This document shows positions 14,001-38,361 of a stretch of DNA of 64,000 nucleotides, one piece after another. Origin of the DNA: Taiwanofungus camphoratus (Eukaryota; Basidiomycota; Agaricomycetes; Polyporales; Taiwanofungaceae); assembly GCA_003999685.1 (NCBI GenBank), contig CP021229.1:1116001-1180000 (forward strand), written 5' to 3'. Under the pieces are notes generated by a model. It did no database searches. It worked only from the letters and a program-made list of their open reading frames with translations, and had not been told where the DNA came from. The number at the start of each line of letters is the position of its first letter. The first letter of the stretch is position 1. Both the position numbers and the translations under genes were made by a program.

Positions 14001-15642
14001 AAGCCCCTCTTGGGCTTGTCTTTGACAGGCCGACAATTGGTGCCCTCGCTGCATCAGTAGATGAAATACGCACTGCCGACTTGGGTTTTGCGAGCAAGGA
14101 CGGCGATACAACGGCAGCGACGACGCCGACATCCCCGACGTCGCTCACCTCCACTGACCTAACTAAGGCGCTCAAACGAACCGCGGCACCGCGGAGGGTT
14201 CCATATGGCGAGGACTACGAGAATCTGCTTCTAAAGTTGCGCCCGTTATATCCTGCATTACCGGCAGATTACTCGAGTCGACCACTCACGATCTTCTTGA
14301 CTGGTGCTACCGGGTTCCTGGGTGCCTTCATCTTGCGAGACCTCCTGTCGCGTCCAGACCGAGTCAAGAAAGTCATATGCCTTGTCCGGGCGCCTGATGC
14401 GAACAAAGCCCTCGACCGTCTACGGGATGCTGTGACTGGACGTGGCGTGTGGAATGAAGACTGGGTCAAGACCTCAAGGCTGGAAGCCGTCAGGGGCGAC
14501 CTAGACCAGGACTTGTTTGGACTCGAACAATCTGCATGGGATCATGTCGCCGACGATGCCGATGCTGTCGTACACAATGGCGCATTGGTGAGTACATGTG
14601 CTGTTCCTGGGTGCTATGTCGAGATCCGCTAATTTGTTGTTGTCAAATCCAGGTGCATTGGGTATACCCTTATGAACGACTGCGGCCTGCAAATGTGTTA
14701 GGGACTCTCACGGCGATGGAGCTGGCTGCTACCGGCAAGCCCAAGTTGTTCGTGTTTGTCTCATCGACGTCTGCCATCGATACGGATTATTATGTCCAAT
14801 TGTCTGACTCGTTATCTCGAGACAAGGATAGTCGTGGGGGTGTCCCAGAAAGCGATGACCTCGAGGGCGCCAGAACGTCACTCAAGACAGGCTATGGGCA
14901 AAGCAAGTGGGTTTCAGAAAAGCTGTTGTTCGAGGCAGGCCGGAGGGGGCTGAAGGGACATATTGTCCGACCCGGATATGTCGTCGGTGATTCCCGATCC
15001 GCCGGTAAGTGTGGTGCCTGATACTCGTGTCGTGACATTGACGGATGGTGGCGTTCCGCAGTAACCAACACGGACGACTTCATCTGGCGAATGGTCAAGG
15101 GCTGTATCCAGCTTGGGTTAGTGCCTGACATCAACAACACAGTCAACATGGTTCCTGTCGACCACGTAGCGCGTTGCACTGCGCTCGCCGCAGTTGAGCC
15201 CTTGCCCGAACACCGGAACGCGCTATCTGTACTGCATGTTGCCGCCCACCCTCGGCCTACCTTCAACGACTTCCTCTCATCGTTGGCTCGGTACGGGTTC
15301 GGCACCGAGCGCAGCGAGTATCTAGTCTGGCGCCGACGGCTCGAGCGGCACGTCATGGATGTCCAAGATAACGCGTTGTTCCCGTTGCTACACTTTGTCC
15401 TTGATGACTTACCCACGAGCACGAAGGCGCCGGAGCTGAATGATGCCAACATGCGCACACTCCTAGCGCCTCACATGGAAGCGACCAATCGCACGGTGGA
15501 CGACGAGCTGATGGGCAGATACTTGGCATGGCTCGTGGATGCAGGGTTCCTGCCTCCTCCTGCTCACACAGATGCTGAGAAAAAGCTTCCGCAGCTGGCC
15601 AATGGGTCAGTCACGAGAGCAGTAGGACGCAGCGGAATCTAG
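11015..15642 (+). CDS. LYS2: L-2-aminoadipate reductase (alpha-aminoadipate reductase)
   Basis: NRPS-like A-T-R enzyme of the fungal aminoadipate lysine pathway: it adenylates L-2-aminoadipate, loads it on phosphopantetheine and reduces it with NADPH to the semialdehyde. Six exons (11015-12113, 12195-12635, 12683-13675, 13728-14587, 14653-15004, 15062-15642) sum to 4326 bases, 1441 residues, close to yeast Lys2 (about 1390). Adenylation motifs: [45 protein letters not shown]. The carrier domain has [14 protein letters not shown] with the Ser that would carry phosphopantetheine, added by a Lys5-type transferase. The reductase domain has [12 protein letters not shown] for NADPH and [11 protein letters not shown] (Tyr/Lys pair). 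The ATG at 11015 is chosen because MENDCVARV matches the start region of the family better than the in-frame ATG at 10967. Confidence 0.97.
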
Positions 15643-16175
15643 TTCGCAGCAAAAGTATGCTATAAGTAGAATCTGTAGAACCTATAATCACTTTGAAATA
15701 ATTATCTTGATTAAGTATGTCCGAGCAATGTGGGACGCATTTGATTACTCTTCGGTGGGCGCTGAGCCGGTGCTATCCTGAGACACCGGTACGACCCCTA
15801 GACTAGCATGTCCATACGGATATCGCAAACGAGGTAATAAAATCGGAAATTCTATCCTCAACGAGAATCTCAGTGAATACTTCACAAGCGATGTACGTGA
15901 CTCATGCCACATAAATTGGGTACTGCAGCAGGTATTCCGCCGAACGGAAGTTTGCACTGGGAAACCGCGGACCTGAAGTACATCCAAAAAAGGGAGCTTA
16001 TACAAGCGGGACACTCCGGCATAAACGCTATGAAGAGATCAGATCTTCCTGACTTGTCCATGACAATTTTGAGGAGGTACATAACTCTTTCATATGGGCG
16101 GAGATATATCGCCCCCTCCCCCTACCCTTCGTGCACAGCGCAGGCGAGGCTGTTATCTGCGGTCTTCTTGGCTCG
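15643..16175. other. Intergenic between LYS2 and the membrane protein gene
   Basis: Contains the LYS2 3' end. Reading frames here (for example from 15904) lack recognisable motifs; they could be 5' leader of the following gene. Confidence 0.45.
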
Positions 16176-18051
16176 ATGCATTGGAGATACTTTGATGACC
16201 ATGCCGCTGCGTACATACGAATCGCAGCCATCTCTGTTGCAGCTTATGAGTACGTATTACCCAATTGCAGACTCGTTTCAGGTATTTATGGTGCTTTACA
16301 TGGAATAGCTATATCATAACACTTCCTGCCGAGTGGCGATTTTACAAGGGCCAGCGAGGGTGGAGGTTGAGCGCGGGGTGTACTCTATTCATTCTCATAC
16401 GGTATTTTACACAACAAAGCTCAGACTTAACATTGACTTTCGTACAGATACATAAGCATCGTTACCATGTTGGTCAGCACTGTTGGATATTTCGCGCGCT
16501 TCTCTCCAGCAACATGCCAAAGATACTTCCTAGTATCACCCATCTTCAAGGGTCAGGAAAGCCTACTTGTTCTTTCTCACGTGCCAAAGCTTTCTTGATG
16601 CGTCCGTCCCCTGCTAGTTGTCCAAACGATGGTGTCTCAGATAATATTGGGTATCAGGTAGTTTCTATTCCCTCACATTCGGATTTATCTCCAATACCTG
16701 TGTAGGACACTCAACATCTCACGACGTGAACCATGGGTCATGTGGACACTGTTAATTCTCTTTACAGTTGTTACTGCAGTTCGTTTGTCTGCGTCCCCAC
16801 TACCATCCGTAGTCTGATGTACTTTACGCCATCAGATGGAATGGTTCACCAACTTGTATGATCGCACTTGTAAGTGTCATTCCCTGAATCTCCTAGTCTA
16901 TCACTAGAAAAGTCTCTTTCCGATAGATGTTCAAAACGAGGTGAGTCATACTAGTGGTAGCCGTACGTTGATGTCTGAGGACCCTCCTCGGTCTACTTAT
17001 CATTTCCAGAGACATAAGTAAGCTCGTTCAATGTGTAATACAATCTCATTCGACATCCTGACCGCTTTCTTTACCCCCAGTTGTATTGGAGGTGATAACT
17101 TGAGGCATATGTCTGTTTGGCTGTACTATGTCATGGCAATGATCTATGATATTGTTACACTCGGTATCTCAGCCTTTTATTTGCTTCGAGTTAAACCTCC
17201 ATCTGGCAGGTAAGAAAGTACCTGGCAATCCATTGACATTGTCTAAGTTCTTGTGCGATCTCTTGCAGAATGTCTCAACTTGTCAAATTGTTCAGTTTCA
17301 TTCATCCTATTGGTTTATCCCTACTATATGTTGATCACCTCCCTGCCAGGATGTTGTATGATGGCATAGGTTACTTTGTCCTTTTGACGGGTATGCATTG
17401 TATCTGCTTCTGGAGCCTGTTGAATTCAAGTTGTTTGCATCAGCCGCAAACATCCTCAATCTCATCCTATACCGTACGAGCGATAAATTCACACAGGTCA
17501 GTCCCATTCTCTTCTCACCACCAGCTGTTATGCTCATAAGGTCTCTGACTCAATCCTTAGTCTTCTGGGTTAGTTGACTTATGTCATTTTCGATGCTGAG
17601 TATCATACTGAACGTTTGTGACACATCAGAGCGTGTATGGCATACGCAGTAACATGGATCATGAGCCAAAGGATTCTTATCCACCTCCGTGGTACGTAAC
17701 TGACCGAGAACACACTACAACTTGGTGCGCGTACTGACCACGCACATCCCAGATGCCGCGGAGAATCACAACCGGACGTCTGCCACGCACGTCATCTCGC
17801 GGCCGCTGCAGTCTGCACGCGACATCTCGCACGCGATGCGCTCACAGTTTGAGACGAAGGACTGGCTTGACGAGGAGCTCGGCATTACGCCGTCAGACCG
17901 GTCACTCTCGGATCTCGAGCACGGCTTCACGGACGTGCTCGACGTGCAGGTGCAGATCGAAGAGAGCGTGACTGTCGAGTACGTTCAGGACCTGTATGAG
18001 CGCGAGTCCTACCGCACCCCGCAGGCCATGTGGAATAGAACTCCGAGGTGA
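16176..18051 (+). CDS. DUF6533-type multispan membrane protein
   Basis: Integral membrane protein of a large Agaricomycete family of unknown function. I infer 14 exons: 16176-16249, 16309-16401, 16448-16551, 16618-16657, 16706-16778, 16836-16869, 16927-16940, 17010-17017, 17081-17209, 17269-17390, 17444-17496, 17561-17568, 17630-17691, 17753-18051. They sum to 1113 bases, 370 residues. The N-terminal DUF6533 signature reads AYDYIITLPAEWRFY, then LFILIRYISIVTML. Later family hallmarks are EWFTNLYDRTY, HMSVWLYYVMAMIYD and a C-terminal cytosolic tail. About seven hydrophobic segments are visible. Two exons are only 8 bases and one is 14; skipping them breaks the frame of conserved blocks. The start ATG is the first in the frame of the DUF6533 exon. 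Confidence 0.85.
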
Positions 18052-18647
18052 TGACACCATTATTCTGATGACTAGATGGTGAGTACCTTTCCTGGATCTA
18101 GCGAGTGGGTGAATGTCAATGTTGGATGCTGATGCACATGGCCTGTGAAGATGGCATCAATGACAATATTTATTCTTCCTTCACGATGAAATACAGCTTT
18201 CCATCGCTTTCGACGGTATAACACAGCATACCAACTATTCTATTCACGTTTATGGCTGTGAAATGTCTGGGTGAGATGGTGTCAGGTTTATAGCCATGTG
18301 TCAGTCGGCATGATCGAGTCGGTGCAGTAGACACCTGGTAGGAGTGATATAAGTAGCCGTTAATAGTTATCCAAATGCTATAATCTAATCTCGGATATGT
18401 GACTAAACAGATTTGTTGGGTTTCAACACATGTACGTTAGAGAGGGGAATGCGATGGAATGACGTCAGATAGGGTTGGTCCCAGATCGCTGGCATCTGAT
18501 GCTCCGTCAATTGGAATCCTACTAAGAATATGTACTGCTCATTTGCGGTAGAGACAATCATGAAACCTAGACACATCAGAAGATACGTATGAAGACAATC
18601 CTTAGCTCCTAAGGGCTAGCGTTACTGACACCTAGGTACGACTTTGG
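18052..18647. other. Intergenic between convergent genes
   Basis: 3' region of the DUF6533 gene and of the GNAT gene on the other strand. No recognisable coding or repeat features. Confidence 0.5.
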
Positions 18648-19441
18648 TCAGCTCACTTTCGTGCCTCTTGCAAATATCCAGGCGGGCCAGTCTCCCCATG
18701 GTGAAGGCATGACTTTGTGGCCTTTCACCGTAAATCCCATCCTCTCGTAAATAGGGACCTGATGGGAAGTGTCAGTCGGACTGTCGACCTTTGGCTGGAG
18801 CTGTGGTGCTTACGTTACGGATGTTGGTTGTACCTAGGGCCATGGTCTCTCCTTCTTTGGCCTAATATATTGGAATGAATACATTACTGTTTCGGCGAAT
18901 GACCGTTGACTTCGCACCTTATCAAACACCAGTTGAAAAAGAGCTTTGGCTATGCCCTTGCCTTGATAGTCGGATCTGACAAAAGCAAAACTGCACCAGT
19001 AGCAGTTCAGCTCTGCCTATAGAAGCCACACAGTGTCACTGATGGCAGCGTACTTATGTCAGGTGAGCAACGCCGACTTACGTCCGGGATACCGAGAAAT
19101 TCGTCAATGACTTTGGGAAATTCTTCACCAAGCTACTCCCCATCAATCTGACTGTTTGTTTCACTCTCATAACCAAGGACTCACTACTGTCGGGTAGTAT
19201 TTCTTTCCTTCTTCAGGCAATGTTTCCAAGAAGGCGTAAAAGCCAAGCTGGCGCTGCTCTTCCCTGCAACGACCCTGAACAAGGCCGATCTGCAAGCAGA
19301 AAACACAACTACTAACGTTTCCCACACATTCCGGCCAGGCGGTAGCCACAAGGTAAACCCTACCAAGGCTCCGTCTTCATCGGTCGCCGTATACATCTCT
19401 CCTGCAACCAGCGCGATAGGCTTAATCATCGCACGAGCCAT
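18648..19441 (-). CDS. GNAT-family N-acetyltransferase
   Basis: Predicted acetyl-CoA-dependent N-acetyltransferase; acceptor unknown. From the ATG at 19441 the order is MARAMIKPIALVAGEMYTA, then a beta-strand segment VGFTLWLPPG typical of fungal GNAT proteins, a helix-rich middle (QLGFYAFLETLPEEGKKYYP), the acetyl-CoA binding motif A RSDYQGKGIAKALFQLV (Q-x-x-G-x-G/A type) and a C-terminal YERMGFTVKG block. At least four short introns are needed. The first exon is uncertain: DPAAISFTAGDISRISD is readable upstream of the chosen ATG in the same frame but no start codon precedes it before a stop, so an additional 5' exon may exist. Confidence 0.7.
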
Positions 19442-20569
19442 GTCGGAGATACGACTAATGTCTCCAGCCGTGAACGATATGGCTGCAGGATCTACCAGAC
19501 ATCAAAATCCATTCGGGATAAGCTCCTGTCCAAGTTTCAGATAGAAATGGACCGACCCGCTGGCATAAGGGCAGAAAATAATTGGATTGCTTCCTCGACC
19601 AAGGTTTCTATATTTTCCAGTCAACATACCTAATGCAAACGAATGGGGGCTGGGAGTGGTACACACCGCTGGGCCTTTCTACCTGTTTCACGGTGACATT
19701 GGGAGGTGCCATCCTGACGATTGTCAACCTCGAATGAGAACTTGAGCAGACTATTATATGCTTTTTCATGTGGATGACTAAGCGTGCGCGTTTCAGGACG
19801 GTCAGACCTATTTGCCCACCAATACCATTTCGAGTCTGAGCGCTTTACGCATAGTACCAGTCGAGTCAACCTAGGGACTAGCATGGAGATCGTCCAGATA
19901 GCCATCCGAGTGTAAATCCGTGGATATGTTCAAGCTATCCACGGGTGGGGTCCGTACGGTTGCAGATGCATCCACAGTTGGGGTGTACATTCGTTGGTAA
20001 ATGTGACCATTGGGTTGAGTACACTGGGTGTCGAGATCATGCATTAGTGAGATGAGGTATTGCGCGACGGTGATCATCGCGTCGGTCGGCGATCAGCCCA
20101 CATGTACATAAGTTGATTCTTCGTGATCTTCCAAGTCATACCGCAAACCCCGGGCCAGTCGGACACCAGCTGGCTCATGCGGCTGAGTCCTATGTGATGA
20201 AGCCAGGTGGGTGCGACGCCCTGTCTGTGCTGTCGTTGGACGCACACAGCTGGGAGCAACAGGCTGGACGAGTTAGAGCCAGGCGCACGTTCAAAATCAT
20301 CAGGAAAAACCTCCCGGCCTGATTAGCACTAAGTAGTATCTATTGCACTCTGGTTCACTACTGCGCTATATGCCGGCTATTATGAAACTACTCTGGGCCT
20401 CACAATGCTATCATCACTAATACCTCTACAAGGCTGCTATTTTGTACTGAGCTTGAGTATAAACAACTATTTCCGAATGTACCTACTAGTCAATTATATA
20501 TAAAATGTGGCTCGGCGTAGAAAATATGTACCTCCAGACATTATACATCCGAAATATTGATGTTCAAGA
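19442..20569. other. Intergenic, no gene recognised
   Basis: Minus frames at 19630-19905 and 19871-20077 have no recognisable features. The region lies between the GNAT 5' end and the 3' end of the transposase gene and should contain one terminus of the transposon, but I found no convincing terminal inverted repeat by eye. Confidence 0.4.
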
Positions 20570-23500
20570 CTAGAATAGGGTCATATATGCTTGTCGGTCT
20601 GTAAAGGGATTGAGCCAGAATGAAGGGCTCTTGTCAAGCACATAACTACTTGACCAATCTCGCGGTGCAACGGGACCAAAGTTCGGGTACAAATGGCAAC
20701 TCCGCTTTATGTCCCGGATATCAATAATACTTGCGAGACGAGCACCGTTGCGGATGCAGCGTGATACCTTGTAGAGCCCGTGTATTCGGTCAGGATTTGT
20801 GAATGCCGTGAACCACTCAATGTAGGCAAGATGTGCTGGGCATGACTGATTGGGAAACAAGTCTTGGATGTGCCTCTGAGGGAGCGAGAAGACAAGTCGA
20901 ACCTGTCCGACACGATAGCCTGATGTTTTGTCAAATAGTATTAGGTTTGATTACACAGGAGTTATGCTCGGAATTGTACCTGCAACACCTATGGAGCTGC
21001 CACCACCCTCATTGACAAGTACAGTATCAAAGCGCCCAGGGACATCGCGCTTCTGCTTATCCTTGCGTTGAGGGCATGCATGAACAACATCCATCATCTG
21101 ACCAGAGATATTGAAGGCTTGTGCATTGTCAATCCAGAGTTTGATCTTGTGGTAGACAGGAACAGTTCGGAATGCAAAATAGATGCTTGCTGATGCACGC
21201 TCGACTTGCATTGTGGTCAAAGATGGGTCACGATGCCTGATAACAAACCGAGCGAGTGCATCACGAAAGTATGTAGCTCCATAGTCTGAGATGATAAGGG
21301 AAAATGGCACAGCCTTCACTGATGGATTTCGTGACATATGAATTGGTGGTTTGCCTGAGTCCACCAATGCCTTGGGGGGAAGCGGGTTTGATACTTGAGA
21401 CCTGATGCGCCACTGAATGTAGGCTTCATGACGCCCAACCTTCTCTTTTCTTTCCAGCCAGACCGTCATTTGAGTGAACTCATCCTTTTGGTTTGTTGCC
21501 CGATATGCATTCTTCGCAAGGTTAATGTGAAGCCGTTCTGAGTACTGGGTGTCATAATTGTCTGTTGTACCGAACAATTGGATAGATGCTAGATAGTGAT
21601 CAAGTGCATGAAGTTTTGGCAGTCTGAAGTGAAGGCGGATACCGAGATCAACAAATGTAGACTTATTAGCATGGAAGCGTGCCAAGGAATCCGTAAGGAG
21701 CTTTAAAGTCTCAGATGTGTGTGCGGGGTACTGAGCGAGGTAGAGGAAGTCCAATAGGGCACGAACAGCTCTGATAAGTCAAACAGCTGACTGTCCTGCA
21801 CGAAGGGGTAAGCCGATAATCAGTCCAAGTAGCACACGACAGATGTCAGCATGTTCTTTTCCGGTCACCTTCTGAAGAGTTGTGATACCCTTCATAAACC
21901 GCCTGACATTGTGATTGGGGGGAAGACGTCGACATCGCGCATCAAGCTCCTCGGGGCCATAAGCTTCCTTGATCCATCAACAACATGCTTGATGACACCC
22001 TGATATAATTGATGCAAAATGTCTGGTGTGATTGAGACAAAGATGTTTACATATGGTAGATCTTCCCAAAATGGATGCATAATCGGTTTAATGCCAACGT
22101 CCTTGCATGCTTGAGTGAATGCAGTTGGCCCTTGATCAATTGCAGAAAGAGCGTCATGAACTTTGTCCAATTCTCGAAGCTCACGGGAAGTATCCATTGA
22201 CTCGCCAATTTCCTCTCGGCTGATAGAGCACTTTGGGCAGTCTCCATTCTTACAGCACATTACAAGCAACTGCTCAGGATAATCCCCAACATATGTGGCA
22301 AGAATCGGATGCCCCCTGCGAATGATACCATCACCACTTGTGATGTTGATGCCCAGTTCACCTGCCCTTTTTAATGGTGCCAATATGCGCTTCATACAGG
22401 CATGAAACAGATTTGCGAGGGTGCGCCGATGAGCTGCCTTGTTCGTAATATGATCAAGACGAGATGTTGGCAAATACGCAAGCAGGATTTGGCCATGACG
22501 TGAAGGCTTGTGGCGAATATCTTTGGGTAGATTGCCAATTGTGAGATACACTGGGTACACTGCCTTGTTCCCAAACAGAGTAAGCTGTGTCTTATCAGAA
22601 GATATGATCACAGGTATGATTGTAGCCCCCAGGTGTTTTTTTTCAACTTCATTCTAGTGTTCATCATTCAGTTTCGTGATGTGATTCATTAAAAGTACAT
22701 CAGGAATTACCTGCGTGGCCCACCACCATTTCCCTGTGTTCATATCAAAGTAGACTCGAGTGCTCATGCTAGCATCTGTGTAATGACGTTCAGGAACGAG
22801 CAAGAGAAAAGGTGTGAATTCAGGATCTCCATAAAGAGCATGAATGCATTGAATGATATTTTGGTAGTACACTTCAAATGCCTCACCAGCAACCACAATC
22901 TCACGTCGTTTGAATGTAGGACGGCCTGAGGGAAGACATTCATCAATGAGTTTGTTTAATTCACAAGTGTTTTTGTATGACAGATTGAGCAGAGTGGCTA
23001 CCTAGTGAATTTTTTGTCAGTGTTAGTTAAGTGCTCATCCAGCTTGAAAAACATAGCACTTACATTCTCAATGCCCAGTAGTTCAGATACTACAGTGGAA
23101 CCTGGCCCCCTCATTTTTGCCCATCGTGCAATCTCCTAATCAAGCTGTGAATTAAATGGTGCCCAAATATTTCCGCCATTGTTTCGATCATGTAGAGAAG
23201 TCTTGTACTTGATGTAGTCTGAAGATTCTCGAGTTTTGGAGATGGGAGCACCTGCGCGATCGCTAGGAAATGTGATGATATGTGTCTTCTTTTGTACGTC
23301 CAGATTAATTGCTTGTTGCTCAGCATATGGATGGCCTGCATTGTCTGCACTTTCAGCATCTTCATCTATGATGACATTATGCTGGAAATGTTCTGCTATG
23401 GGGGGTTCCCATCCTCCCTCCTCCAATTCATCATCCTCATCATCCTCATTGTTGTCCTCATCATCCTCATCAAAGTCTGTTTTAACATGCTCCTCCTGAT

Positions 23501-23900
23501 CATTCTCGTCAACCTCAAAATCACCTGCTGTATAGTTGCCAAAGAAGTCACCCTGAAAATGACTCAGAGGAGTCAAAGGATTTTCATCTTCATCATCAGA
23601 GTTACTTGCGAGATCAAGCGCAATGTCGTATTGGTATTGGATTTTTCTACATGTCGCTTTTGTTGTCTGAAGAAGATGATTTGTATAGCCCCTTGATGAG
23701 AAGGTACGACCACATCCTGGTCAATTAGGCATAAAGAAAATTGCTTATTGAACAACAGTACTGAGCAGACCTATGACAATTGTGCTGTAGGCAGAACGTA
23801 GCAAGTTGATAATAGGGATGGAAACTCAAAGAATGTCGGGAGATTACGAAAGCTGAGCCACATCAACCAGTTTTCGGTTGAAATTGCTACCGGTTCGATC
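20570..23900 (-). mobile_element. Plavaka-type DNA transposon (CACTA superfamily), decayed
   Basis: Transposase gene of the Plavaka group found in Agaricomycetes. In minus-strand order: a zinc-finger-like start (GCGRTFSSRGYTNHLL near 23700), an acidic linker encoded by a TCATCC-like repeat (23410-23480), then WATQ joined over an intron to NEVEKKHLGATIIPVIISSD, PVYLTIGNLPKDIRHKPSR, GDYPEQLLV, a CCKNGDCPKC zinc knuckle, and the C-terminal core AYIEWFTAFTNPDRIHGLYK ... FGPVAPRDWSSSYVLD with the stop at 20570. The copy is not functional as it stands: the frame shifts near 21975 and an in-frame TGA lies at 21779-21781. Terminal repeats and target duplication were not found, so outer limits are approximate. 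Confidence 0.85.
23412..23480. repeat. Imperfect TCATCC/TCCTCA microsatellite coding an acidic tract
   Basis: A run of TCATCCTCATCC-like units lies inside the transposase gene. On the minus strand it encodes Asp/Glu-rich residues (DEDDEDNNEDDEDDELEE). Acidic linkers of this type are common between the zinc finger and catalytic core of such transposases. Confidence 0.8.
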
Positions 23901-25189
23901 TAAAACTGTTGTTAGAGAATGGCAAGTGAAAAAGATACATTGATCATCCTTACTAAATTGGCCAGCACAGCAGCTTTATTTTGCAACCCTCTCTTGCTTA
24001 TAATCTCGTCTCCCCCTCCTTTCTGCTCCTCTTCCATTTTAGCCTTTAATCTTCCTCATTTCTCATCTATTCTGAGCAGCTTCAGTCGGTCTTCATGCAG
24101 TCTTATAAGGACCACAAGAAGGCTGACCCAAATCCATTATCCACTGTCAGCGTGGCAGTGCATGCAGTTAGAATGACAACACGGCGCTCTATACCACAAT
24201 CTGAGATGGCAGCTGACAAGATCAACAATGATCAGACAGAGAATGTCTCTGCTAGTGAGACATGATGCAATCACTCATGAAGTATTCACTAATTGACTTG
24301 ACAGTGAAACCTGGGAGACCACAGCGTCGGGCACAAAAGACAGCACTGGAAAATCGCAGTACAGTGTATTTCTTCCTAGAAAATGACAACTATTGAGCAA
24401 CAATTGACAGTTTGGATGAAAGACCAACCTCAAAGCCGTAAACGAGCACCGTCAACCACAGGTGGCACAGACTCTACTAATTTTGTGAAACGTTGATAAG
24501 TCTGGTACTCCTCTGCGCCCCGAAAGCACCTATTTTCGGTTTTATATGCGCTTCTAGACTACTCTACAGATCATCAGGACAAAGATCCACCATCCGTGCA
24601 TCATAATGCCACCCAAGAAATCCAGTCAATGCATCAAAACATCATTATCTAGACTTCGGATATCAGAAGTTCTACAGCGCACCTCAGAAGCCTCTATCCC
24701 ACAGAGCAGTCCCTCATACTCTGTAATGCACTCTTTCAGCTCGTCCTAGCATCCCTCTTATGTCCCCAAGTCCTTCTTGTTGGCCAAGGAAAACCGAGCA
24801 AAAGTCCTTCAGTCTTCGGTTTTCGGTCGTCGATCTCGAGTCCTTCGGTTATCGGTCTTCAGTCCTTGGTTCTGGTTCTTGGTCCCTCGGTCCGAAGTGC
24901 CAGCCTCTTGTTCATGATGTCCATATGATCTCTTGATCCCTGTTCCCCCCCAAGGCCTGGTTAGATAGCCTACCTTCCATATGATGATCTCTAGATAAGC
25001 ATCCCTCACCTTGTGCCATTCCCCCGTAACCTTTCTACCGCATTCAGTGTCCCTGTTTCATGTCCTACTTCAGTTTAGTTCCCCATATGGTACACGGATC
25101 AGATCCTAGATTTTACGATTTTTGGTTTGTTTTTGGTTTCTTCAGTTTTATTTTGCGTAAGATACTTTGACACCACGGTGATACAATCT
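23901..25189. other. Non-coding AT-leaning flank with short degenerate repeats
   Basis: No sizeable frame. At 24805-24900 the text is built from variants of TCGGTCTTCAGTCCTTGG. Segments at about 24960-25085 resemble, in direct orientation, the inverted-repeat arm at about 27560-27690 (shared ACCTTTCTACCG and CCCTGTTTCA blocks). Probably old transposon-derived DNA. Confidence 0.45.
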
Positions 25190-26946
25190 AGGGGACCCTG
25201 GTACCTAGGGAGTGCTCCGCAACGTGGCTGTGGGGTAGTGTGATAACTGTGAGGGTGTGCAGGTAGGAGCTACAACCTGTATGATATCGGGAAACCTGTA
25301 TGTCTTGTTTTTGTAAGTAGGGGAGTAAGGGGTCAAGGGTCCTGCACAACAGGATCTTGTTCCTAAGTGCTATACTATCCCTAAGGCCTTGCGAGGCCCT
25401 CCGAAGTACGCGAAGTCCTTCGCGATTCTGCGAAGTCCTTCGAAGTTTTTAGCTAAATCGCGCGAGCTGACTTCGTAGGCTGTATAGAGTTAGGGGGCAA
25501 TACGCCAATGGACTATAATTTCTACTAAGCGGCAGAGGGTACAAGACTGCTGCGAAATCCTTTTAGCTAGAGTTAGCTAAAGGGCGTAAGGCTTAGAGGT
25601 TTGTTAGAGCGAGGTGGGCGAGGTTTGGCTAGCGTAGGAGACTTGTAGGAGAGGTCAGATGGTTCGGAGAGCTAATACTTGGAATAGGGATGAGGGAACA
25701 AGGTTGCTGGCAGCTCTGAAGTGTCTGGTGACTTCGAGGTGTGGGTCGGAGAGTTTGAGGGCGTAGAGAGATGTACTATAGCCTGAAACTAAGGCTATGG
25801 GAGAGTCGTAGGGCTATTTGTAGGACGTAGGGATGACGCAACGTGAGCCTAAGGGTATAACTAAGGCGGAGGCCCACCAGGTAGATGCTATATGAGGTGC
25901 CGAAAGGTGCGAAGTCACGGCAACTTCGTGGATTGTAGTGTGTAATTCGGGAAGCGTAGACGTGGTTCGTAGATATATCGCGAGCGTAGACGTAGTTCAA
26001 AGGTACTGAAATGAAGCTGGGGTGGAGACTTAGGGACCTTAGGACTGTTCCTAAGGTTGTACTCGCGGCGCTTTCCTGAGATCGGAGCTACAGGGGAACT
26101 GGTATTCCAAAGAGAGAAGCGTGCACTGAGGGGTCTCTGTCTCACATAGTAAACTACCTCTGACTAAATAGGGGAGCGTGAGGTGAACTAATCTTGCGCG
26201 AAGTGATCCTTACGAGTCCGAAATGTGTACTAAAGCGCATGGACTCCGAAGTGAACACGAGGAGGATAGGAACTAATTAGGAACTGAAACAGGGGAACTA
26301 CGTACGGTAGAAAGGTGACCAAGTTCATTCACGAGGGCGGGATGACTATCCGAGATCAGCCATGCGCTGTGATCACCTACCTTAGTGGGCTAAGAGTGCA
26401 CAAAGTTCTTAGCAGCGGGACTTGGCCTAATCGGGGCAGGAGGTGTCCTAACTGGGTGGAGGGTCATATGGGTACGCCCTAGGATGACCTTATGGCATAG
26501 GATCGAGACCCATGGGGGTGCACAAGGCTTCCTAAGTCCAACTTCCGGAACTTCGGACTGTTTCAGAGCCTATCGGAGGTAGCTGCAATTACAAGAGCTA
26601 GGAGAGACTTAGCTAAGACTTCTTAGCTAAGCCCGGGATGAGTGACGTAGTAGATAGGACCTAGATCCAATGGAACAGTATGGGAGGGCCGGCAGTGTCC
26701 GATAGTGGACTTAGCAGGAGTTAGGGACTTCGCGTCTAGCATTCGAAATCTTGTAGCACCTCATGTGACTTCGCAAGACTTCGTAGGGTGTTAGGAGGGT
26801 TTAGGAAGGAGAGAGGGCGTTAGGAATATTATAGGAACCTATCCCTCCTGTCGTAGGCTGTAGGAGAGTCTTAGAGTGGTCGGTTGGGGGATTAGAAAGC
26901 TTCTAATAATCGCGATTCGGGGCCCAGGAGGCTACAGGACTCATCA
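25190..26946 (+). repeat. Left arm of a large inverted repeat
   Basis: This segment pairs as reverse complement with 27003-28420 and, after an interruption, with 29583-29868. Matching blocks visible by eye include GGGGACCCTGGTACCTAGGG (25196 on) against its complement near 29855, and GGTCGGTTGGGGGATTAG (26879 on) against 27058. Divergence looks like roughly 10 percent, with small indels. No long reading frame. A 56-base spacer (26947-27002) separates the arms. Confidence 0.85.
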
Positions 26947-27002
26947 ACGGACCCCTTATGTAGTCTCCTGTACCTACCAGACGGGGAAGAGAAGATACAC
27001 AC

Positions 27003-28420
27003 TGATGAGTCCTGCAGCCTCCTGGGCCCCAAATCGCGATTTTAGGAGCTTTCTAATCCCCCAACCGACCACTCTAAGACTCTTCTACAGCCTACAACAG
27101 GAGGGATAGGTTCCTATAATATTCCTAACGCCTCCCTTCCTTCCTAAACCCTTCTAACACCCTACAAAGTCTTGCGAGGTCACACGAGGTGCTATGAGGT
27201 TTCAAATGCTAGCCGCGAAGTCCCTAACTCCTGCTAAGTCCACTATCGGACACTGCCGGCCCTCCCATACTGTTCCATTGGATCTAGGTCCTACCTACTA
27301 CATCACTCATCCTGGGCTTAGTTAAGAAGTCTTAGCTAAGTCTCTCCTAGCTCTTGTGATTGCAGCTACCTCCGATAGGCTCCGAAACAGTCCAAAGTTC
27401 CGGAAGCTGGACTTAGGAAGCCTTGCGCACCCCATGGGTCTTGATCCTATGCCATAAGGTCCTCCTATGGCACATCCATATGATCCTCCACCCATTTAGG
27501 ACACCTCCTACCCCGATTAGGCCAAGTCCCACTGCTAGAAACTTTGTACACTCTTAGCCCACTAAGATAGTTGATCACGGTGCATGGCTGCTCTCGGATA
27601 GTCATCCTGCCCTCGTGAATGAACTTGGTCACCTTTCTACCGTACGTAGTTCCCCTGTTTCAGTTCCTATTTAGTTCCTATCCTCCTCGTGTTCACTTCG
27701 GAGCCCACATGCTGTAGTACACATTTCGGACTTGTAAGGATCACCTCACACAAGAATAGTTCACCTCACCCTCCCCTATTTAGTCAGAGGTAGTTTACTA
27801 TGTACCAGAGAGACCCCTCAGTGCACGCTTCTTCCTTTGGAATACAAGTTCCCCTGTAGCTCCAATCTCAGAAAAGTGCCATGAGTACAACCTTAGAAAC
27901 GGTCCTAAGCCCCTAAGTCTCCACCCCAGCTCTGTTTCAGTATCTTTGAACTACATCTACGCTCACGATATATCTACGAACCACGTCTACGCTTCCTGAA
28001 CTACGCACTACGATCCACGAAGTCACCATGACTTCGCACCCTTCAGCACCTCTTATAGCACCTATCTGGTGGGCCTCCGCCTTAGTTATACCCTTGGGCT
28101 CACGTTGTGTCATCTCTACATCCTACGAGTAGCCCCGCAACTCTACCGTAACCTTCATTTCAGGTTATAGTACATCTCCCTACGCCTTCAAACTCCCCGA
28201 TCTACACCTCAAAGTCATCAGACACTTTGGAGCTTCCAGCAACCTCGTTCTCCCATTCCTATTCCAAGTATTAGCTCTCCGAACCATCTGACCTCTCCTA
28301 CAGGCCTCCTATGCTAGCCAAATCTTGCCCACCTCACTCTAACAAGCCTCTAAGCCTTACGCCCTTTAGCTAACTCTAGTTAAAGACTTTGCAGCACCTA
28401 CGAAGTCAGTTCGTGCGCTG
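27003..28420 (-). repeat. Right arm of the large inverted repeat, inner part
   Basis: Reverse complement of about 25470-26946. The match stops at a GCGC near 28415, where a block of about 1.16 kb (28421-29582) interrupts the arm before pairing resumes at 29583. Non-coding. Confidence 0.85.
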
Positions 28421-28668
28421 ATGCAAACTATAACACTCCAACCCCACCGGGGTATGACCTAGAGAAGCTGGAAGGCTATAGAACTAGTTAGTGTAAAGGG
28501 GAGAGTCAGCAGCAAAGGGTTCCCGATCTCAAATGGGTCGAGAGACGTCTACGAAGGTCTTCGACAACCTTCTATGTGTGTCGCGACTGCTCGACGTAGC
28601 TTTGATGCACTACTATGCTGTACTATACTAGGGAGAGACTTAAACGTGAGAACTTAGCTGATACGCAG
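28421..28668 (+). repeat. Second inverted repeat, left copy (about 245 bp)
   Basis: Reverse complement of 29870-30115 at close to 90 percent identity by eye. Shared blocks include CTATAACACTCCAA at its outer edge, GACCTAGAGAAGCTGGAA, AGTCAGCAGCAAAGGGTTCC and TGTCGCGACTGCTC. Lies immediately inside the break in the large right arm. Confidence 0.85.
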
Positions 28669-28880
28669 CCCTTCGAAATACTGTAGACAGCGGACTTGGG
28701 TTAGAGAGAGATGCTAGCGCAACCCTTCAATGTAGCTCGAAGGCGGATGTAAGACTGAACACAACTTCTTCGACGGATGTCGAAGACGGACGAGACGCAA
28801 CCCTTCAAGATACTGTAGAAGGCGGATAGTAGACGCAACTCTTCGAACGTAATCAAAGACGGAAGGATGCAGTAGAACAC
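28665..28880 (+). repeat. Degenerate tandem repeat, about 35-55 bp units
   Basis: Around five units begin with GCAACCCTTC-like sequence, each followed by a short inverted partner ending in GGCGGA or GACGGA (for example GCAACCCTTCAAGATACTG then TAGAAGGCGGA). Each unit can form a small hairpin. No reading frame is maintained. Confidence 0.6.
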
Positions 28881-28999
28881 AGTAGGTGACTAAATTGAAG
28901 GTGCTCTTCTTGAGCTCTACAGGATAGGGGAAAACTTCTCTGTTGTTCTGAGACACTATACCTCGCGTTTATGCTACTGTACTATAATGTAAGGCGCAT

Positions 29000-29583
29000 C
29001 GGGAGTGGCATAGTACGAGTGGCATCCTAACTACTTGCGTACTACGAACTACGGAGTGGCATGAAATATACTAAGACAAGACCTGGGGCCGTAGCATTAT
29101 CGAGTACATCGAGTGGCGCGTCGTAGCAGATCGAGCGATATCGGAGTGGCGAGACCGGTCACGTGCGAGGACATTGAGTGGCAACTGCGTGTGGCGTATT
29201 GTGCGTAGAGGGACCGGTACACCGGAACATCAGACCGGAACTGGCGGAGTGTCAGTGGCGTGATTCGAGGCTATTGGAGAGTCCCGCGGTGGCTTTTCGG
29301 ACTGTATCGGACACGTCGAGTGGCGTCGAAGCCATGACTAAGGTCCTAGGGTCGAGTGAGGGCGCTCCGTGGGGCCTAGAAGGGCCTGGCACCTATCACC
29401 AGTACATCGGAACACCGGACCGGAACTGGCAGAGTGGCGGTGGCGTGATTTGAGGCTATCAGAGAGTCCCACGGTGGCTTTTCGGGCTGTATCGGACGTG
29501 TCGAGTGGCGTCGAAGCCATGACTAAGGTCCTAGGGTCGAGTGAGGGTGCTCCGTGGGGCCTAGAAGTGCCTGGCGCCTATCA
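29000..29583 (+). repeat. GAGTGGC-rich block ending in a 185-bp tandem duplication
   Basis: The heptamer GAGTGGC (or GAGTGGCA/G) recurs about every 25-60 bases from 28998. From about 29214 two direct copies with a 185-base period are visible (anchors GTAC at 29217 and 29402; shared AGCCATGACTAAGGTCCTAG and GAGTGAGGGCGCTCC/GAGTGAGGGTGCTCC). The copies look about 90 percent identical. Confidence 0.8.
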
Positions 29584-29868
29584 GCGCTTTAGCTAAAACT
29601 TCAAAGGACTTCGCAGAACTTTGAAGGACTTCGCGCACTTCAGAGGGCCTCGCAAGGCCTTAGGGATTGTCTAGCACTTAGGAACAAGATCCTGTCACAC
29701 AGGACCCTTGACCCCTTACTCCCTTGCTTATATAAAACAAGACATACAGGTTTCCCGGTATCATACAGGTTGTAGCTCCTCCCCTCACATCCCCACAGTT
29801 CACACATTACCTCTTAGCCACATTTCGGAGCACTCCCTAGGTACCAGGGTCCCCTAGGTCACATCAGC
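29583..29868 (-). repeat. Right arm of the large inverted repeat, outer part
   Basis: Reverse complement of about 25190-25470. Shared blocks include CACTTAGGAACAAGATCCTG, GACCCTTGACCCCTTACTCC and AGCACTCCCTAGGTACCAGG. Together with 27003-28420 it restores the full length of the left arm (about 1.7 kb). Confidence 0.85.
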
Positions 29869-29869
29869 G

Positions 29870-30115
29870 TATCAGCTAAGTCCTCACGTTTAGCCTCCCC
29901 TTTGTATGGTACTGCATAGTAGCGCATCAAAGCTACATTGAGCAGTCGCGACACACATCATAGGTCATCGAAGACCTTCGTAGACATCTCTCGACCCATT
30001 TGAGACTGGGAACCCTTTGCTGCTGACTCTCCCCTAGCACACTAACTAGTTCTATAGCTTTCCAGCTTCTCTAGGTCGTATCCAGTTGGGTTTGGAGTGT
30101 TATAGTGCGTATCAG
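29870..30115 (-). repeat. Second inverted repeat, right copy (about 245 bp)
   Basis: Reverse complement of 28421-28668. It directly abuts the outer end of the large right arm and ends near TTGGAGTGTTATAGTGCG, the complement of the outer edge of the left copy. Confidence 0.85.
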
Positions 30116-31218
30116 TGCACACTCAAGAATCACCATTGTATACATACTGTGTGTTTTTTATGACTCCAAGATGTTATGAGTTTAGTGTATGTTTTTCTTG
30201 GATTCCCAAAATTTCTTGTTAAGCAGACTGGCATATACACATTTTTATATTATATGCAGGTCTAGAATTGAGCTTCAAGAGTGCGAAGTCTGGTCAGACT
30301 CAATTTAAGTGGTACCTCCCACATGTCTGATCATACAGATGACCCTGATTCTCAGGAAGCTCAGGATCTCCCTCACAATGACTTCAATGGCATATTGGTC
30401 CTTGGTACAGACATGCATGAGACCTCAACCGACCTTAAGCTTTACTAAAGTCAGCAGTAAGCTACAGTCTTCAGCAAGTCACAGCACCCCCTTTCCAGCC
30501 CAATGAGACTGACCAATGTTTGTGTCATTAGAGGGCATTGCATGAGAAGAGAAGCTATGTTTTTACCAGAGTGCCTGTTGCAGGCTTTTATAGTGGTTTG
30601 GGGCCCCACTGGTGAATATTCAAGTAAGTACAGGATTCCCTTAGTAAGTAAAATACTTTCTATAGTAATGTATTTATAATTATCTCCACAACAGTTTGAA
30701 AATGCACTATGCCGGGGCTCATAGACTGTTAAGAACAATCAATGTTGCATACCTGCTGCAGAAATGTATGGAGTTGCAGAGAGTTCTTGATGACCAGCGG
30801 AGTATTATCGATGATTCGAGAATCCCCCAGCACTCAAATCATCACGGATCAATAAACCGATTAGAACAAAAAATCCAAGCCGACTGATTCAAGGCTTCAA
30901 CCTTCTAGAGTCCGTGAGCCTCTGACCGTCACGGCGTTGCCATGAAGACGGAGTGAAGTATGGGTCCATGTTTACATATATTTGGACATATGGGTGCATA
31001 GTTCTGCTTGCCATTCAATCTGGTCTCAATTGCTTGTCGATTGCAGTTTGTACCTTTACTTCTTGAGTTCGACTTGTGGGTCCACTAGCAATCCCGTCTC
31101 TTGATTGCGGTCGACCTCGAAGGATATAAACATGACACCGAATGCCGACATGTTTCCAGCATCCCACCCTCCTTCAAACGTAGTCCCGTACCATCCCCAC
31201 CTATAAATCCACGCCAAA
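30116..31218. other. AT-rich intergenic region with promoter of the PPxY gene
   Basis: 30116-30900 is AT-rich with short frames and no recognised domains. 31040-31130 holds the block conserved with the paralogue's promoter (see the regulatory entry). Confidence 0.45.
31050..31130 (+). promoter_or_regulatory. Promoter block shared with the paralogous gene
   Basis: TTCGACTTGTGGGTCCACT, then CTTGATTGCGGTCGA and AAGGATATAAA (TATA-like, 31120-31130) are found in the same order and spacing upstream of the paralogue on the other strand (about 56471-56540). The TATA-like element is about 90 bases before the ATG at 31219. Confidence 0.6.
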
Positions 31219-31927
31219 ATGACTTTTCAATCCTTGTCTTCCTCCAAGTTTCGCACAGTCTTCGGCATCTGGAGGAAAGCGCCTCCCGCGGAGCGGGACC
31301 TTGAAGCTCAGACTGAGGTTGTCGGTCCGCGTGAATACTACCTCCACATCGACATTTCTACGCCTCCTGCGGCCCGCACCCACACTCCCCACGCCCAGCC
31401 TTCTTACTCTACCGAGGACGAGGAGGGCACCGACCCAGTCGACGATTTTTTTGGCGTCGTTCGCTCTTCACACCCATCACGCTCTTGCACAGGCACTCAG
31501 GACAGCCGGCATGACGCAGCGCGTATCATAGTTCAGAATGATGATGTGCCACCGCCTTACACATATGCGTCGGACCCGCCTGCCTACTCCCGTGTGGCAG
31601 AGCATCCAACCCTTGCGATGTATCTGTTCAGGTTCGGATTCTGTAAGTCTGCGTGGTCTCGCTGTCCTCGAAAGCCTTTACTTATAAAGCTGCTCCCGTC
31701 CAGTATTCCCACTTTTCTGGATCGCTGGCTCGCTGATCCTGATTTCTCCACTTCGTGCACCAGAGGATTGGGAGCTCTCTAAGACGGAGGCAGAGCGACA
31801 GGAGCTCATTGTGACAATGAGGCGCTCGGAAGTGAAGTGGGCGAAGCGCTGTCTCATCGCTCTCTCAGTGTTCCTGTCAGTCGTCCTGGTGGCAGTGTTG
31901 ATCGTAGTATTCGTGAAACGATCATGA
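31219..31927 (+). CDS. Small PPxY-motif membrane protein, copy 1
   Basis: 215 residues from two exons (31219-31642 and 31704-31927; 648 bases). The N-terminal half is polar and disordered, with DPVDDFFGVVRS. Two proline motifs follow, PPPYTYASDPPAYS, of the PPxY type bound by WW domains of Rsp5/Nedd4-like ligases. Then comes MYLFRFGFLFPLFWIAGSLI (a probable membrane segment spanning the splice junction), a charged helix (DWELSKTEAERQ...EVKWAKRC) and a C-terminal hydrophobic segment before a short basic end. The layout suggests a two-span or hairpin membrane protein with cytosolic PPxY motifs. Function unknown; a role as trafficking or ubiquitin-ligase adaptor is only an inference. Confidence 0.85.
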
Positions 31928-32302
31928 GCGCTGCTGTATGATGAATGGACTTGTACCCTCTTCCCAGGCGACTTTCCACGATCACGACCATTCCCTCCAT
32001 CCAGTCATCGTAATGTTCGCACATTCGCCAGAGGACCATTGTCGTTGATCTTGGGTCAGACATCGACCCAATCCACACGGCCTAGTGCAAGTCCTGAAGC
32101 TTGCGCCGTCCGGTAACAACATCCATATATCGCTCATTCCGAGAATTACCCCCACCGCGTCTTCCACTCGATCGTTTACACTGCATATTTCACATCAGTC
32201 TCTCTTTCACATTTCCCGGTATCCTGCTGGAGCAGCTCTGTATCGTTATTTCAATAATTTGCACACCTGTACAGAATAGTGTAACTGCCTTATCAACTAC
32301 GA
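31928..32302. other. Intergenic, nothing recognised
   Basis: 3' flank of the PPxY gene; no features beyond short frames. Confidence 0.45.
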
Positions 32303-35980: not shown

Positions 35981-38361
35981 ATGGCGGCTTCATTATGGGC
36001 GAAAGCCTCGGTCTCGGCAGCTGGCATTGTGTTTCGTGCCAGCCGGTATGCTCCCAAATTGCAACGTGGTATATCTATCCCAAAGCATCGCGACACTTTG
36101 CCTTACTGACCCGCACCCCAGTCTCTTTGGCAGGCCCAATTACTGCCCACCGGTTTAATACCACGTCTGCTGTGTTGCAAAAGGAAACATTAGAAGAAAA
36201 CACCCTCGATCGTGTAGCCCCGGAAACTCGTACGAATTCGGAACCCGAGGCGAAGAAATCCCTCCATTCTGACCAGCCGGAGTTCACCACACTGAAAGGC
36301 AATGTTTCTTCGGAAACACTCAAGGCCATCACCGTCAGTCCTTACAAGCTGAAACATATGACTCCTGTCCAGACCGCCGTCCTATCTCTTCTTCCTGCGC
36401 TTGCCGAACCCTACAAACCTCAGTCACCTGAAGATAATGCGCCTCGCCCTTCGCGGGACTTGTTGGTGAGGGCGAAGACGGGCACAGGAAAGACACTCGC
36501 ATTCCTGGTCCCAGCTATCGAGGCGCGTCTCAACGCCCTTCGTGCACACGGCAAGCAAGCGGTTACGGATGCAGGCCTGGTGAGCGATAAACGAATCGAG
36601 GCACAAGCCAGACGGATTTTCAGTCGGACCAACGTTGGCACATTGATTATCAGTCCGACGCGCGAGCTGGCGACACAGATCTCTAACGAGGCACTGCAGC
36701 TATCTTGTCATCACGATTTTGAGGTCCGGCTGATGGTTGGGGGTAACAGCAAACAGCAGCAAATGCGAGACTTCATGCGGGGTAGACGGGACATTGTTGT
36801 TGCCACTCCGGGTCGTCTGAGGGACTTGCTTGAGAACGAGCCGGAAGTCTCGAAGAGCATTTCGAAAGCGCAGTTGGTGAGTTGTCCTATCACGTGATAA
36901 CACAACGGCATCTTAACTCCTCGCTTGCAGTTAATCCTGGACGAAGCTGACACTCTGCTGGATATGGGCTTCCGGGATGACATCGACGCTATCACAAAGT
37001 TCTTGCTTCCGACTCCCCAGAGGCAAACGTTCATGTTCTCTGCTACCGTGTCTACTCAGATCAGGCAGGTTGCGCGGGCAACGTTGGAGAAAGACCACCA
37101 TTTCATCAACTGTGTTACTAACGATGCGCCTCCCATTCATGCACACATTCCCCAATATCACACCGTCCTGCCCAGCGCTGGTCATCAGATTCCGCATATT
37201 CTCCGCCTGCTTGCACATGACCAGTTGTTGAACCCCGGGGCATCGAAAACCATCGTCTTCCTACCTACGACGAAGATGACCCAGCTCTTCGCTACTCTCT
37301 TACGCCAATTGTCCAAGACCTGTCTCCCGGCGGGTAGGGATACACATATATACGAGATACACTCCAAGCGCCCACAGAGATCGCGAGACAACACATCCAC
37401 GGATTTTCGGAAGGACAAGTCGGGTGCTTCTATTCTCATCTCATCTGACGTGTCTGCGCGCGGCGTAGACTATCCTGGAGTCACTCGTATAATTCAAGTC
37501 GGCATCCCGTCTGCCTCAGACCAGTATATCCACCGCGTGGGTCGTACAGGTCGTGGGCTCAACACACATGGTCGCGCCGATCTGGTGCTCTTGCCTTGGG
37601 AAGTTGGCTTCGTAACATGGGAATTAACTCACATTCCCCTTAAGCCGCTTACCACCAATGAGCTCAAGAATCAGGTCACAGAGCTTGCAAAAAAATACGA
37701 CGAGGATCCCGACGCATCGTTTAAAGATGTCAAGACTACCCGGCCATCCAAGGAATTCTCCGACCGTACCCGCTTCGCGGATAGGGGTCCAAGGCAGTTC
37801 AATGCCCCCTACACTCCCGTACTTGAAAATATTCCCGAGAGTATCAACCAGCTACTTCCTCAGCTCGACGAAGAGGCCATCAAGGAGACAATGGCCTCCC
37901 TTTTAGGCTACTATGTCTCTAAATCCGCCGAGCTGCGCGTGCAGCGGCCTGTCATTGTGCAAGGATGCAAAGACTGGACAGTGGACGCAATGGGGCTGCC
38001 GACACCACCATATGTCTCTGACGCTTTCTTGGACCGACTGGGTGCCAACGACGGCAGAACCAAACGATTTGGCCAAAGCCGGGACAACGAGCGTAGGTTT
38101 AGCAGGTCCGCAGGAGGGCCGCACTGGGTGGGAAGAGGTAACCAGAGAAACAATTCCGGGGCAGGGGATCGAGGCTATGAACGATCGTCAGACAGGTCCT
38201 ATCCCAGACGAGATGGAGGCTATGAACGATCATCAGACAGGTCCTATTCCAGGCGAGATGGAGGCTTTGAGCGGTCATCAGACAGGTCTCATTTCAAACG
38301 GGATCCGAGAGATCCCTCTGGCTCTCCAGATGAATACAGGAGCCAGAGGTACCGTGGTTGA
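35981..38361 (+). CDS. DEAD-box ATP-dependent RNA helicase, MSS116-like, probably mitochondrial
   Basis: 757 residues from three exons (35981-36068, 36122-36876, 36931-38361; 2274 bases). The N-terminus MAASLWAKASVSAAGIVFRA is basic and hydroxylated without acidic residues, as in mitochondrial presequences. Helicase motifs in order: MTPVQTAVLS (Q), AKTGTGKT (I), PTRELATQ (Ia), TPGR (Ib), LDEADTLLDMG (II), FSAT (III), IVFLPTTKM (IV), SDVSARGVDYPG (V), YIHRVGRTGRG (VI). The C-terminal tail is Arg/Ser/Gly-rich and carries three 15-residue repeats of the form GYERSSDRSYPRRDG, typical of RNA-binding tails that assist Mss116 in group I/II intron folding. Assignment to the Mss116 group rests on overall similarity and the presequence. 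Confidence 0.92.
38171..38305 (+). repeat. Three 45-bp in-frame tandem repeats in the helicase tail
   Basis: Units start with GAGGCTATGAACGATC-like sequence at 38171, 38216 and 38261. They encode the (G)YERSSDRSY+RRDG unit; the third has F for Y and diverges after RSHF. Being a multiple of three, copy-number change keeps the frame. Confidence 0.9.

Follow-up and report, generated by a model that had tools for sequence, protein, structure and literature searches.

A long non-coding palindrome of Taiwanofungus camphoratus, probably a nest of mobile elements inserted head-on

What gives rise, in a fungal genome, to a non-coding palindrome of about 4.7 kb with arms of about 1.75 kb? An initial annotation of a 64,000-nucleotide stretch of T. 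camphoratus DNA (contig CP021229.1, positions 1,116,001 to 1,180,000; hereafter the window) described such a structure and considered a giant foldback transposon, an inverted duplication or a source of long double-stranded RNA. Self-blastn and a repeat search of the window bear out the palindrome almost exactly at its noted place. Self-blastn aligns 25548-28396 with its own reverse complement at 89.4% (E 0.0) and 25175-25461 with 29870-29584 at 86.8%, and the repeat search finds the arms as ungapped pieces with 86-95% complementarity. The arm match, put by eye at about 90 percent, amounts to 90.1% identity in a global alignment that excludes the interruption at 28419-29583 (167 mismatches in 1,694 base pairs); when the ends are set slightly differently, 1,531 of 1,698 positions are identical. 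The 56-base loop (26947-27002) and the outlying right-arm piece reported at 29583-29868, which aligns at 29584-29866, were likewise correct. The 1.16-kb interruption of the right arm had not been described as a unit, nor had the inverted copy of its first 250 bp that lies just after that arm. Judging from the divergence of the arms, an assembly artefact behind the palindrome is unlikely, since a chimeric inverted duplication should give near-identical arms, whereas 10% divergence is seen here.

Further evidence comes from the ends of the individual parts (Table 1), in which the left arm is called element A, the inverted right arm A', the interruption C and its partial copy C2. Each arm has TGAT at its start and ATCA at its end. 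With its flanks, A reads ACGG-TGAT...ATCA-ACGG and C reads GCGC-TGAT...ATCA-GCGC, and for each of the two a search extending 8 bases to either side yields a single 4-bp TIR+TSD solution, at zero shift. Among random boundary pairs in the window such a match within 6 bases either way occurs in 589 of 200,000, and together with TGAT at a frequency of 2e-05, figures to be read with the pattern having been spotted by eye before the statistical test. The TIR+TSD search gave no solution in 5 of the 7 intervals tested. Neither A' alone (ACAC versus GCGT) nor A' plus C2 (ACAC versus GTGC) is flanked by an exact 4-bp repeat, and truncated C2 has no solution. Thus the combination that marks a non-autonomous TIR transposon, inverted termini with a flanking target repeat, was found for A and C and not for A'. 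Moreover, it is only the right arm that C breaks; at the matching point the left arm runs through without interruption and represents the empty site of C. By eye, TGAT and, at equal distance (bases 23-28), GGCCCC are common to the 3' ends of A and C, and 6 to 8 of the first ten 5' bases of the two elements agree, four of them being TGAT. Both elements are G-rich on the strand that starts with the 5' end (GC skew 0.27 for A and 0.17 for C).

Table 1. Parts of the palindrome and its surroundings (window positions; TSD, target-site duplication).
Feature	Position	Strand	Basis
ACGG, left 4-bp TSD copy of A	25175..25178	+	flank sequence; sole 4-bp TIR+TSD solution, 8 bases either way
Element A, left arm, 1,768 bp, non-coding, TGATACAATC...GGACTCATCA	25179..26946	+	boundaries, alignment, no coding signal
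ACGG, right TSD copy of A, first four bases of the loop	26947..26950	+	flank sequence
Loop, 56 bases, putatively the sequence separating the two insertions	26947..27002	.	repeat search
Element A', inner part, right arm, inverted, about five sixths of the family	27003..28418	-	nhmmer, A 273-1769 at 28426-27003; self-blastn
GCGC, left 4-bp TSD copy of C	28415..28418	+	flank sequence, TIR+TSD search
Element C, 1,165 bp, non-coding, TGATGCAAAC...GCGCCTATCA, within A'	28419..29583	+	nhmmer, TIR+TSD search
GCGC, right TSD copy of C	29584..29587	+	flank sequence, TIR+TSD search
Element A', outer part, family 5' end, inverted	29584..29866	-	nhmmer, A 1-284 at 29866-29584; self-blastn
C2, truncated second C copy, about C positions 2-250, inverted, ends at the A' end	29867..30114	-	nhmmer, C 2-250 at 30113-29865, E 4.4e-55; self-blastn
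Possible weak relic, third A-family copy	24985..25082	-	nhmmer, 8.1 bits, bias correction 7.4, E 0.0015 window-wide

Because TGAT and ATCA are the ends of each arm, and a 4-bp target repeat flanks the left arm on both sides, the mobile unit appears to be the arm and not the palindrome. The palindrome is therefore very probably a nest of non-coding mobile elements in which A and A' were inserted head-on, 56 bp apart, and the whole looks like four insertions from two element families. Two copies of one non-autonomous family of about 1.7 kb would have inserted in opposite orientation, whereby the inverted repeat forms automatically. The second element type, C (1.17 kb, with the TGAT...ATCA ends of A), would then have inserted into A', which adjoins the truncated copy C2. 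The right flank of A', GCGT, is C2 sequence, and A' may earlier have inserted into C2. It may also be that A' and C2 were mobilised or truncated together, since their outer flanks, ACAC and GTGC, correspond only on the assumption that a GCGC repeat decayed at CpGs. The elements would have moved by cut-and-paste or by an integrase-type transfer of strands, with a stagger of 4 bp, the enzymes presumably being supplied from elsewhere in the genome. A simple and checkable account, two opposite insertions, thus replaces the proposed giant foldback element.

No coding signal was found in the palindrome, and the earlier statement that neither arm carries a long reading frame is confirmed. At 103 aa, the longest stop-free stretch, which lies in the left arm, agrees with what the composition of that arm leads one to expect: 300 simulated arms average 102.8, and 62% of them do not exceed the observed length. 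None of the ten stop-free stretches scanned, out of 16 listed, matches Pfam at E<=1, and the window contains neither an Rfam match at gathering score nor a tRNA. The words TATAAA, TATATA, AATAAA and ATTAAA are absent from both strands of A and C; both elements do contain the shorter TATAA, A three times and C twice. Within C we found a 185-bp tandem duplication at 29213-29583 and nine GAGTGGC words.

As to class, a short-TIR derivative of a DNA transposon is for A and C the reading to which we lean. Solo LTRs of LTR retrotransposons are a tentative, less probable alternative: they too are non-coding, have TG...CA ends and a 4-bp repeat, as found on A and C, and the short terminal inversion and strong strand asymmetry would suit them, as would the 3-6 bp TSDs given for LTR elements in the available text of PMC10045372. 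On the other hand, no partner copy in direct orientation exists in the window, and the lack of TATAAA, TATATA, AATAAA and ATTAAA argues weakly against solo LTRs, TATAA being present. A literature word search, in which such descriptions are easily missed, retrieved neither a basidiomycete solo LTR with a 4 bp target site duplication nor a fungal DNA transposon combining a 4 bp TSD with TGAT/ATCA.

Among DNA transposons, the non-autonomous elements of the agaricomycete Marasmius oreades resemble A and C in having target repeats, defined ends and no protein domains, but most of them span less than 1,000 bp according to the consulted sections of PMC8290104, whereas A and C are larger (1.2-1.8 kb). 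Compared by description only, TGATR...ATCA with a 4-bp repeat matches no group named in those sections. A Plavaka transposase match (PF18759) lies close to the nest. PlavakaB (CMCT clade) has 5'-CATCA...TGATG-3' ends and 2-3 bp TSDs in the available text of PMC12730594; the letters TGAT/ATCA thus stand at the ends of both and a Plavaka match adjoins here, but A and C read 5'-TGAT...ATCA-3', in the opposite sense, with a 4 bp TSD, and PlavakaB termini as described there were not found on them. The inverted exact matches of at least 12 bases between the two sides of the Plavaka gene (15901-20954 versus 23721-31200) measure 14, 13, 12 and 12 bases. We rejected the palindrome as part of a neighbouring Plavaka element: convincing enclosing termini are missing and the longest match (14) lies inside A, although very short or decayed termini are possible. 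The Plavaka protein pattern matched 3 stretches of viral contigs, none of which was confirmed as a relative.

Using nhmmer, neither a third full A copy nor a further full C copy was found in the window, and no A or C end beyond those listed, including any that could belong to a related autonomous element. Weak matches outside the nest, e.g. 62741-62798 (E 0.065), were not accepted as copies. For the possible relic beside the nest, the best of 300 shuffled flanks reached 1.9 bits versus 8.1. Patterns from the arm or C have no exact match in viral contigs (3 patterns) or genome contigs (2 patterns), nor does 25181-28412 have a blastn match at E<=1e-5 in plasmid records; these collections consist of viral, prokaryotic and plasmid sequences and hence say little about a fungal family. 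A and C are an ordinary kind of element, whose families may be unnamed. Should these ends and 4-bp repeats prove consistent across the genome, the fungus has two non-coding families, with enzymes that would come from elsewhere.

It remains to weigh the nest against accounts that treat the palindrome as one unit. Foldback elements, reportedly including Tetris of Drosophila virilis and Tm1 of nematodes, share long inverted arms and a short centre with the present structure, so that one foldback-type transposon measuring about 4.7-4.9 kb, mobilised whole with the arms as its long terminal inverted repeats, would fit the anatomy. By eye, the interval 25174-30117 even reads CAC...GTG flanked by CAC, like the 5'-CAC...GTG-3' termini with 3-bp TSD given for EnSpm/CACTA in the available text of PMC12730594. 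Yet the right end belongs to C2 rather than A', so that the sequences at 25174 and 30117 agree by eye over only about nine bases and need a gap of 2 bases; neither A..A' nor A..C2 has a 4-bp TIR+TSD within 8 bases of its outer ends; and the target repeat of A flanks the left arm on both sides, its inner copy lying inside the loop. The unit of movement here thus appears to be the single arm, and a whole foldback element is improbable. Of the original proposal, the mobile element is supported and the giant foldback is not; self-blastn finds one copy of the whole inverted-repeat pair in the window. A local inverted duplication of one non-coding stretch by a replication or repair accident, followed by decay, would account for the lack of an exact target repeat at A' alone and for mismatches that fall toward the loop. 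Nevertheless, this earlier suggestion has little probability, given the TGAT/ATCA ends of the arms, the ACGG flanking the left arm, the different block with the same ends inserted in one arm and the weak possible third relic. Unequal CpG decay also speaks against it: CpG is kept at 38 places only in A and at 11 only in A' (p = 1.4e-4). Non-CpG transitions are balanced (44 versus 43), hence A' is not simply an older copy; the comparison is without an outgroup and does not give the direction of each change. The CpG imbalance fits separate histories, or different methylation histories, of the arms. Between C and C2 the CpG asymmetry is not clear (5 versus 3).

The suggested source of long double-stranded RNA survives as a prediction of folding: 851 nt across the centre fold to one long hairpin at -765.8 kcal/mol, compared to -278.0 (s.d. 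9.3) for 20 shuffles. That the locus is selected as hairpin RNA, transcription through both insertions yielding dsRNA that enters RNA silencing directed at the A family, is however highly unlikely, even though mismatches are rarest near the loop. Folding itself follows from the inverted repeat, and differences between the arms that leave G-T (67) or A-C (70) are about equally frequent (p = 0.86), thus showing no sign of favoured wobble-keeping changes on either strand. Head-on insertion pairs nonetheless suggest themselves as candidate hairpin-RNA triggers of silencing. We consider it very doubtful that A and C found an unnamed fungal group at superfamily level (TGATR...ATCA, 4-bp CG-centred TSDs) whose mutual insertions create palindromes and thereby dsRNA silencing of the family. 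Non-CpG mismatches between the arms drop toward the loop from 9.4% to 4.4% (permutation p = 0.0008), a trend that independent insertions alone do not predict; if such a group and its silencing were real, this drop would mark ongoing conversion or hairpin constraint.

The palindrome is real. Comparison of the window with itself recovers the inverted repeat where the initial annotation had placed it, with a single palindromic match at 25548-28396 (89.4%) and pairing of 25175-25461 with 29870-29584 (86.8%). An end-to-end alignment of the left arm (A) with the inverted right arm (A'), which leaves out the 1.16-kb block C interrupting the latter, gives 1,527 identical positions among 1,694 base pairs (90.1%), in line with the roughly 90% proposed, and the loop indeed measures 56 bases. 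The sole large indel between the arms comprises 68 bases (around 25480-25547) present in A and missing from A'; either A gained them or A' lost them. The statement that the arms carry no long reading frame likewise holds: the longest stop-free run is 103 amino acids, as much as composition predicts (left arm simulated 300 times), and a Pfam scan of 10 of the 16 listed stop-free stretches returned no match.

The arm ends are not arbitrary. The inner ACGG flank of A forms bases 1-4 of the "loop", and the left arm is continuous at the point homologous to the C insertion. This pattern of ends and flanking repeats in A and C was spotted by eye and tested afterwards, by moving the boundaries through all shifts of up to 8 bases in both directions and looking for 4 inverted terminal bases accompanied by a 4-bp flanking repeat. 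A and C each yield a single solution, at zero shift and with TGAT; the remaining five of the seven intervals (A', A'+C2, C2, A..C2 and A..A', C2 being an inverted partial copy of C) yield none. When boundary pairs were drawn at random from the window, 589 of 200,000 had some match of this kind within 6 bases in either direction. By eye only, the outermost ends (25174-30117) read CAC...GTG and are CAC-flanked.

Features of the palindromic locus and the adjoining transposase region
Feature	Position	Strand or orientation	Description
A	25179 TGATACAATC to 26946 GGACTCATCA		left arm; ACGG flank on either side
A'	27003-28418 + 29584-29866	inverted	right arm
C	28419 TGATGCAAAC to 29583 GCGCCTATCA		interrupts right arm; GCGC flank on either side
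C2	29867-30114	inverted	copy of first 250 bases of C, stops at A' end (nhmmer E 4.4e-55)
Possible third A-family relic	24985-25082		8.1 bits (bias correction 7.4), against a best of 1.9 bits in 300 shuffled flanks
Plavaka transposase match (PF18759)	21895-22653	minus	E 3.7e-88
DUF6830 match	20954-21778	minus	E 6.8e-06

Given these copies and the possible third A-family relic, the locus is best read as a transposon nest, and a nest of the ordinary kind explains it well. A and C possibly represent a pair of unnamed element families. They may moreover be related, since by eye their 3' ends have TGAT and GGCCCC in common at equal distance, and 6 to 8 of the first ten 5' bases agree between A/A' and C/C2, TGAT accounting for four of them. 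Both are G-rich on the strand beginning with the 5' end; TpA is abundant in A, while C contains the word GAGTGGC nine times and a 185-bp tandem duplication.

Two family-A copies lying 56 bases apart in opposite orientation would suffice to produce the palindrome, and the inverted duplication originally considered would not be needed. Unequal CpG decay supports different histories of the arms: CpG is kept in A but reads TpG, CpA or TpA in A' at 38 places, against 11 for the reverse (p = 1.4e-4; 37 vs 10 in a recount with slightly different ends and TpG and CpA only). As non-CpG transitions are balanced (44 vs 43), A' is not simply the older copy. C and C2 show no clear CpG asymmetry (5 vs 3). 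The weak point of the two-insertion account is the mismatch between the immediate flanks of A', ACAC and GCGT. If A' had inserted into C2, GCGT would be the remnant expected on that side; the flanks of A'+C2, ACAC and GTGC, could derive from a GCGC repeat, but only via three CpG transitions.

The palindrome resembles foldback elements in shape but differs in that the mobile unit appears to be a single arm, which, together with the failure of the end search at A..A' and A..C2, argues against the giant foldback transposon initially suggested. As to the proposed source of long double-stranded RNA, a predicted 851-nt transcript over the palindrome centre folds into a single very long hairpin (-765.8 kcal/mol; 20 shuffles, -278.0 kcal/mol, s.d. 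9.3), but this follows from the inverted repeat itself and is no proof of function. Selection for pairing of a one-strand RNA predicts more G-T than A-C differences between the arms, or the reverse, and the counts (67 vs 70) show no such bias. Non-CpG mismatches amount to 9.4% in both outer quarters, then fall to 7.1% and 4.4% toward the loop, with a permutation p of 0.0008 (0.0022 when all mismatches are counted), a trend absent at CpG sites (p = 0.66); the drop could stem from arm-to-arm conversion near the loop or from a conserved family 3' end. Regarding class, A and C would also fit solo LTRs, sharing TG...CA ends and a 4-bp repeat; 3-6 bp repeats are given for these in PMC10045372. PlavakaB, described in PMC12730594 with ends CATCA...TGATG and 2-3 bp repeats, was rejected as an identity for A and C, which show TGAT and 4-bp repeats.

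The Plavaka and DUF6830 ORFs adjoin the nest (20954-22653, minus strand, perhaps reaching 23720); long terminal repeats flanking the Plavaka ORFs were looked for and none were found. PMC12730594 and PMC8290104 place Plavaka families in Agaricomycotina, and together with the Plavaka match this makes a mushroom-forming fungus the probable host, although Plavaka is reportedly named in work on other organisms as well. Elsewhere in the window, an NRPS-like reductase is spread over consecutive plus-strand ORFs at 10892-15639, which give matches to condensation, AMP-binding, PP-binding and, known as Male sterility protein, NAD_binding_4. Self-comparison further reveals an inverted duplicate (31060-31931 / 56540-55649, 69% identical) overlapping ORFs 31207-31779 and 55501-56403, both without Pfam match. 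Diverged direct duplicates lie at 6037-6774 / 8985-9716 (65%) and 1750-2069 / 46011-46333 (75%), the last copy overlapping ORF 45843-46340, which matches FAD-binding and Zn-dehydrogenase weakly. Near the end of ORF 36901-38358 (DEAD and Helicase_C matches), a 45-bp tandem repeat, corresponding to 15 codons, is present in 2.7 copies (38167-38288).
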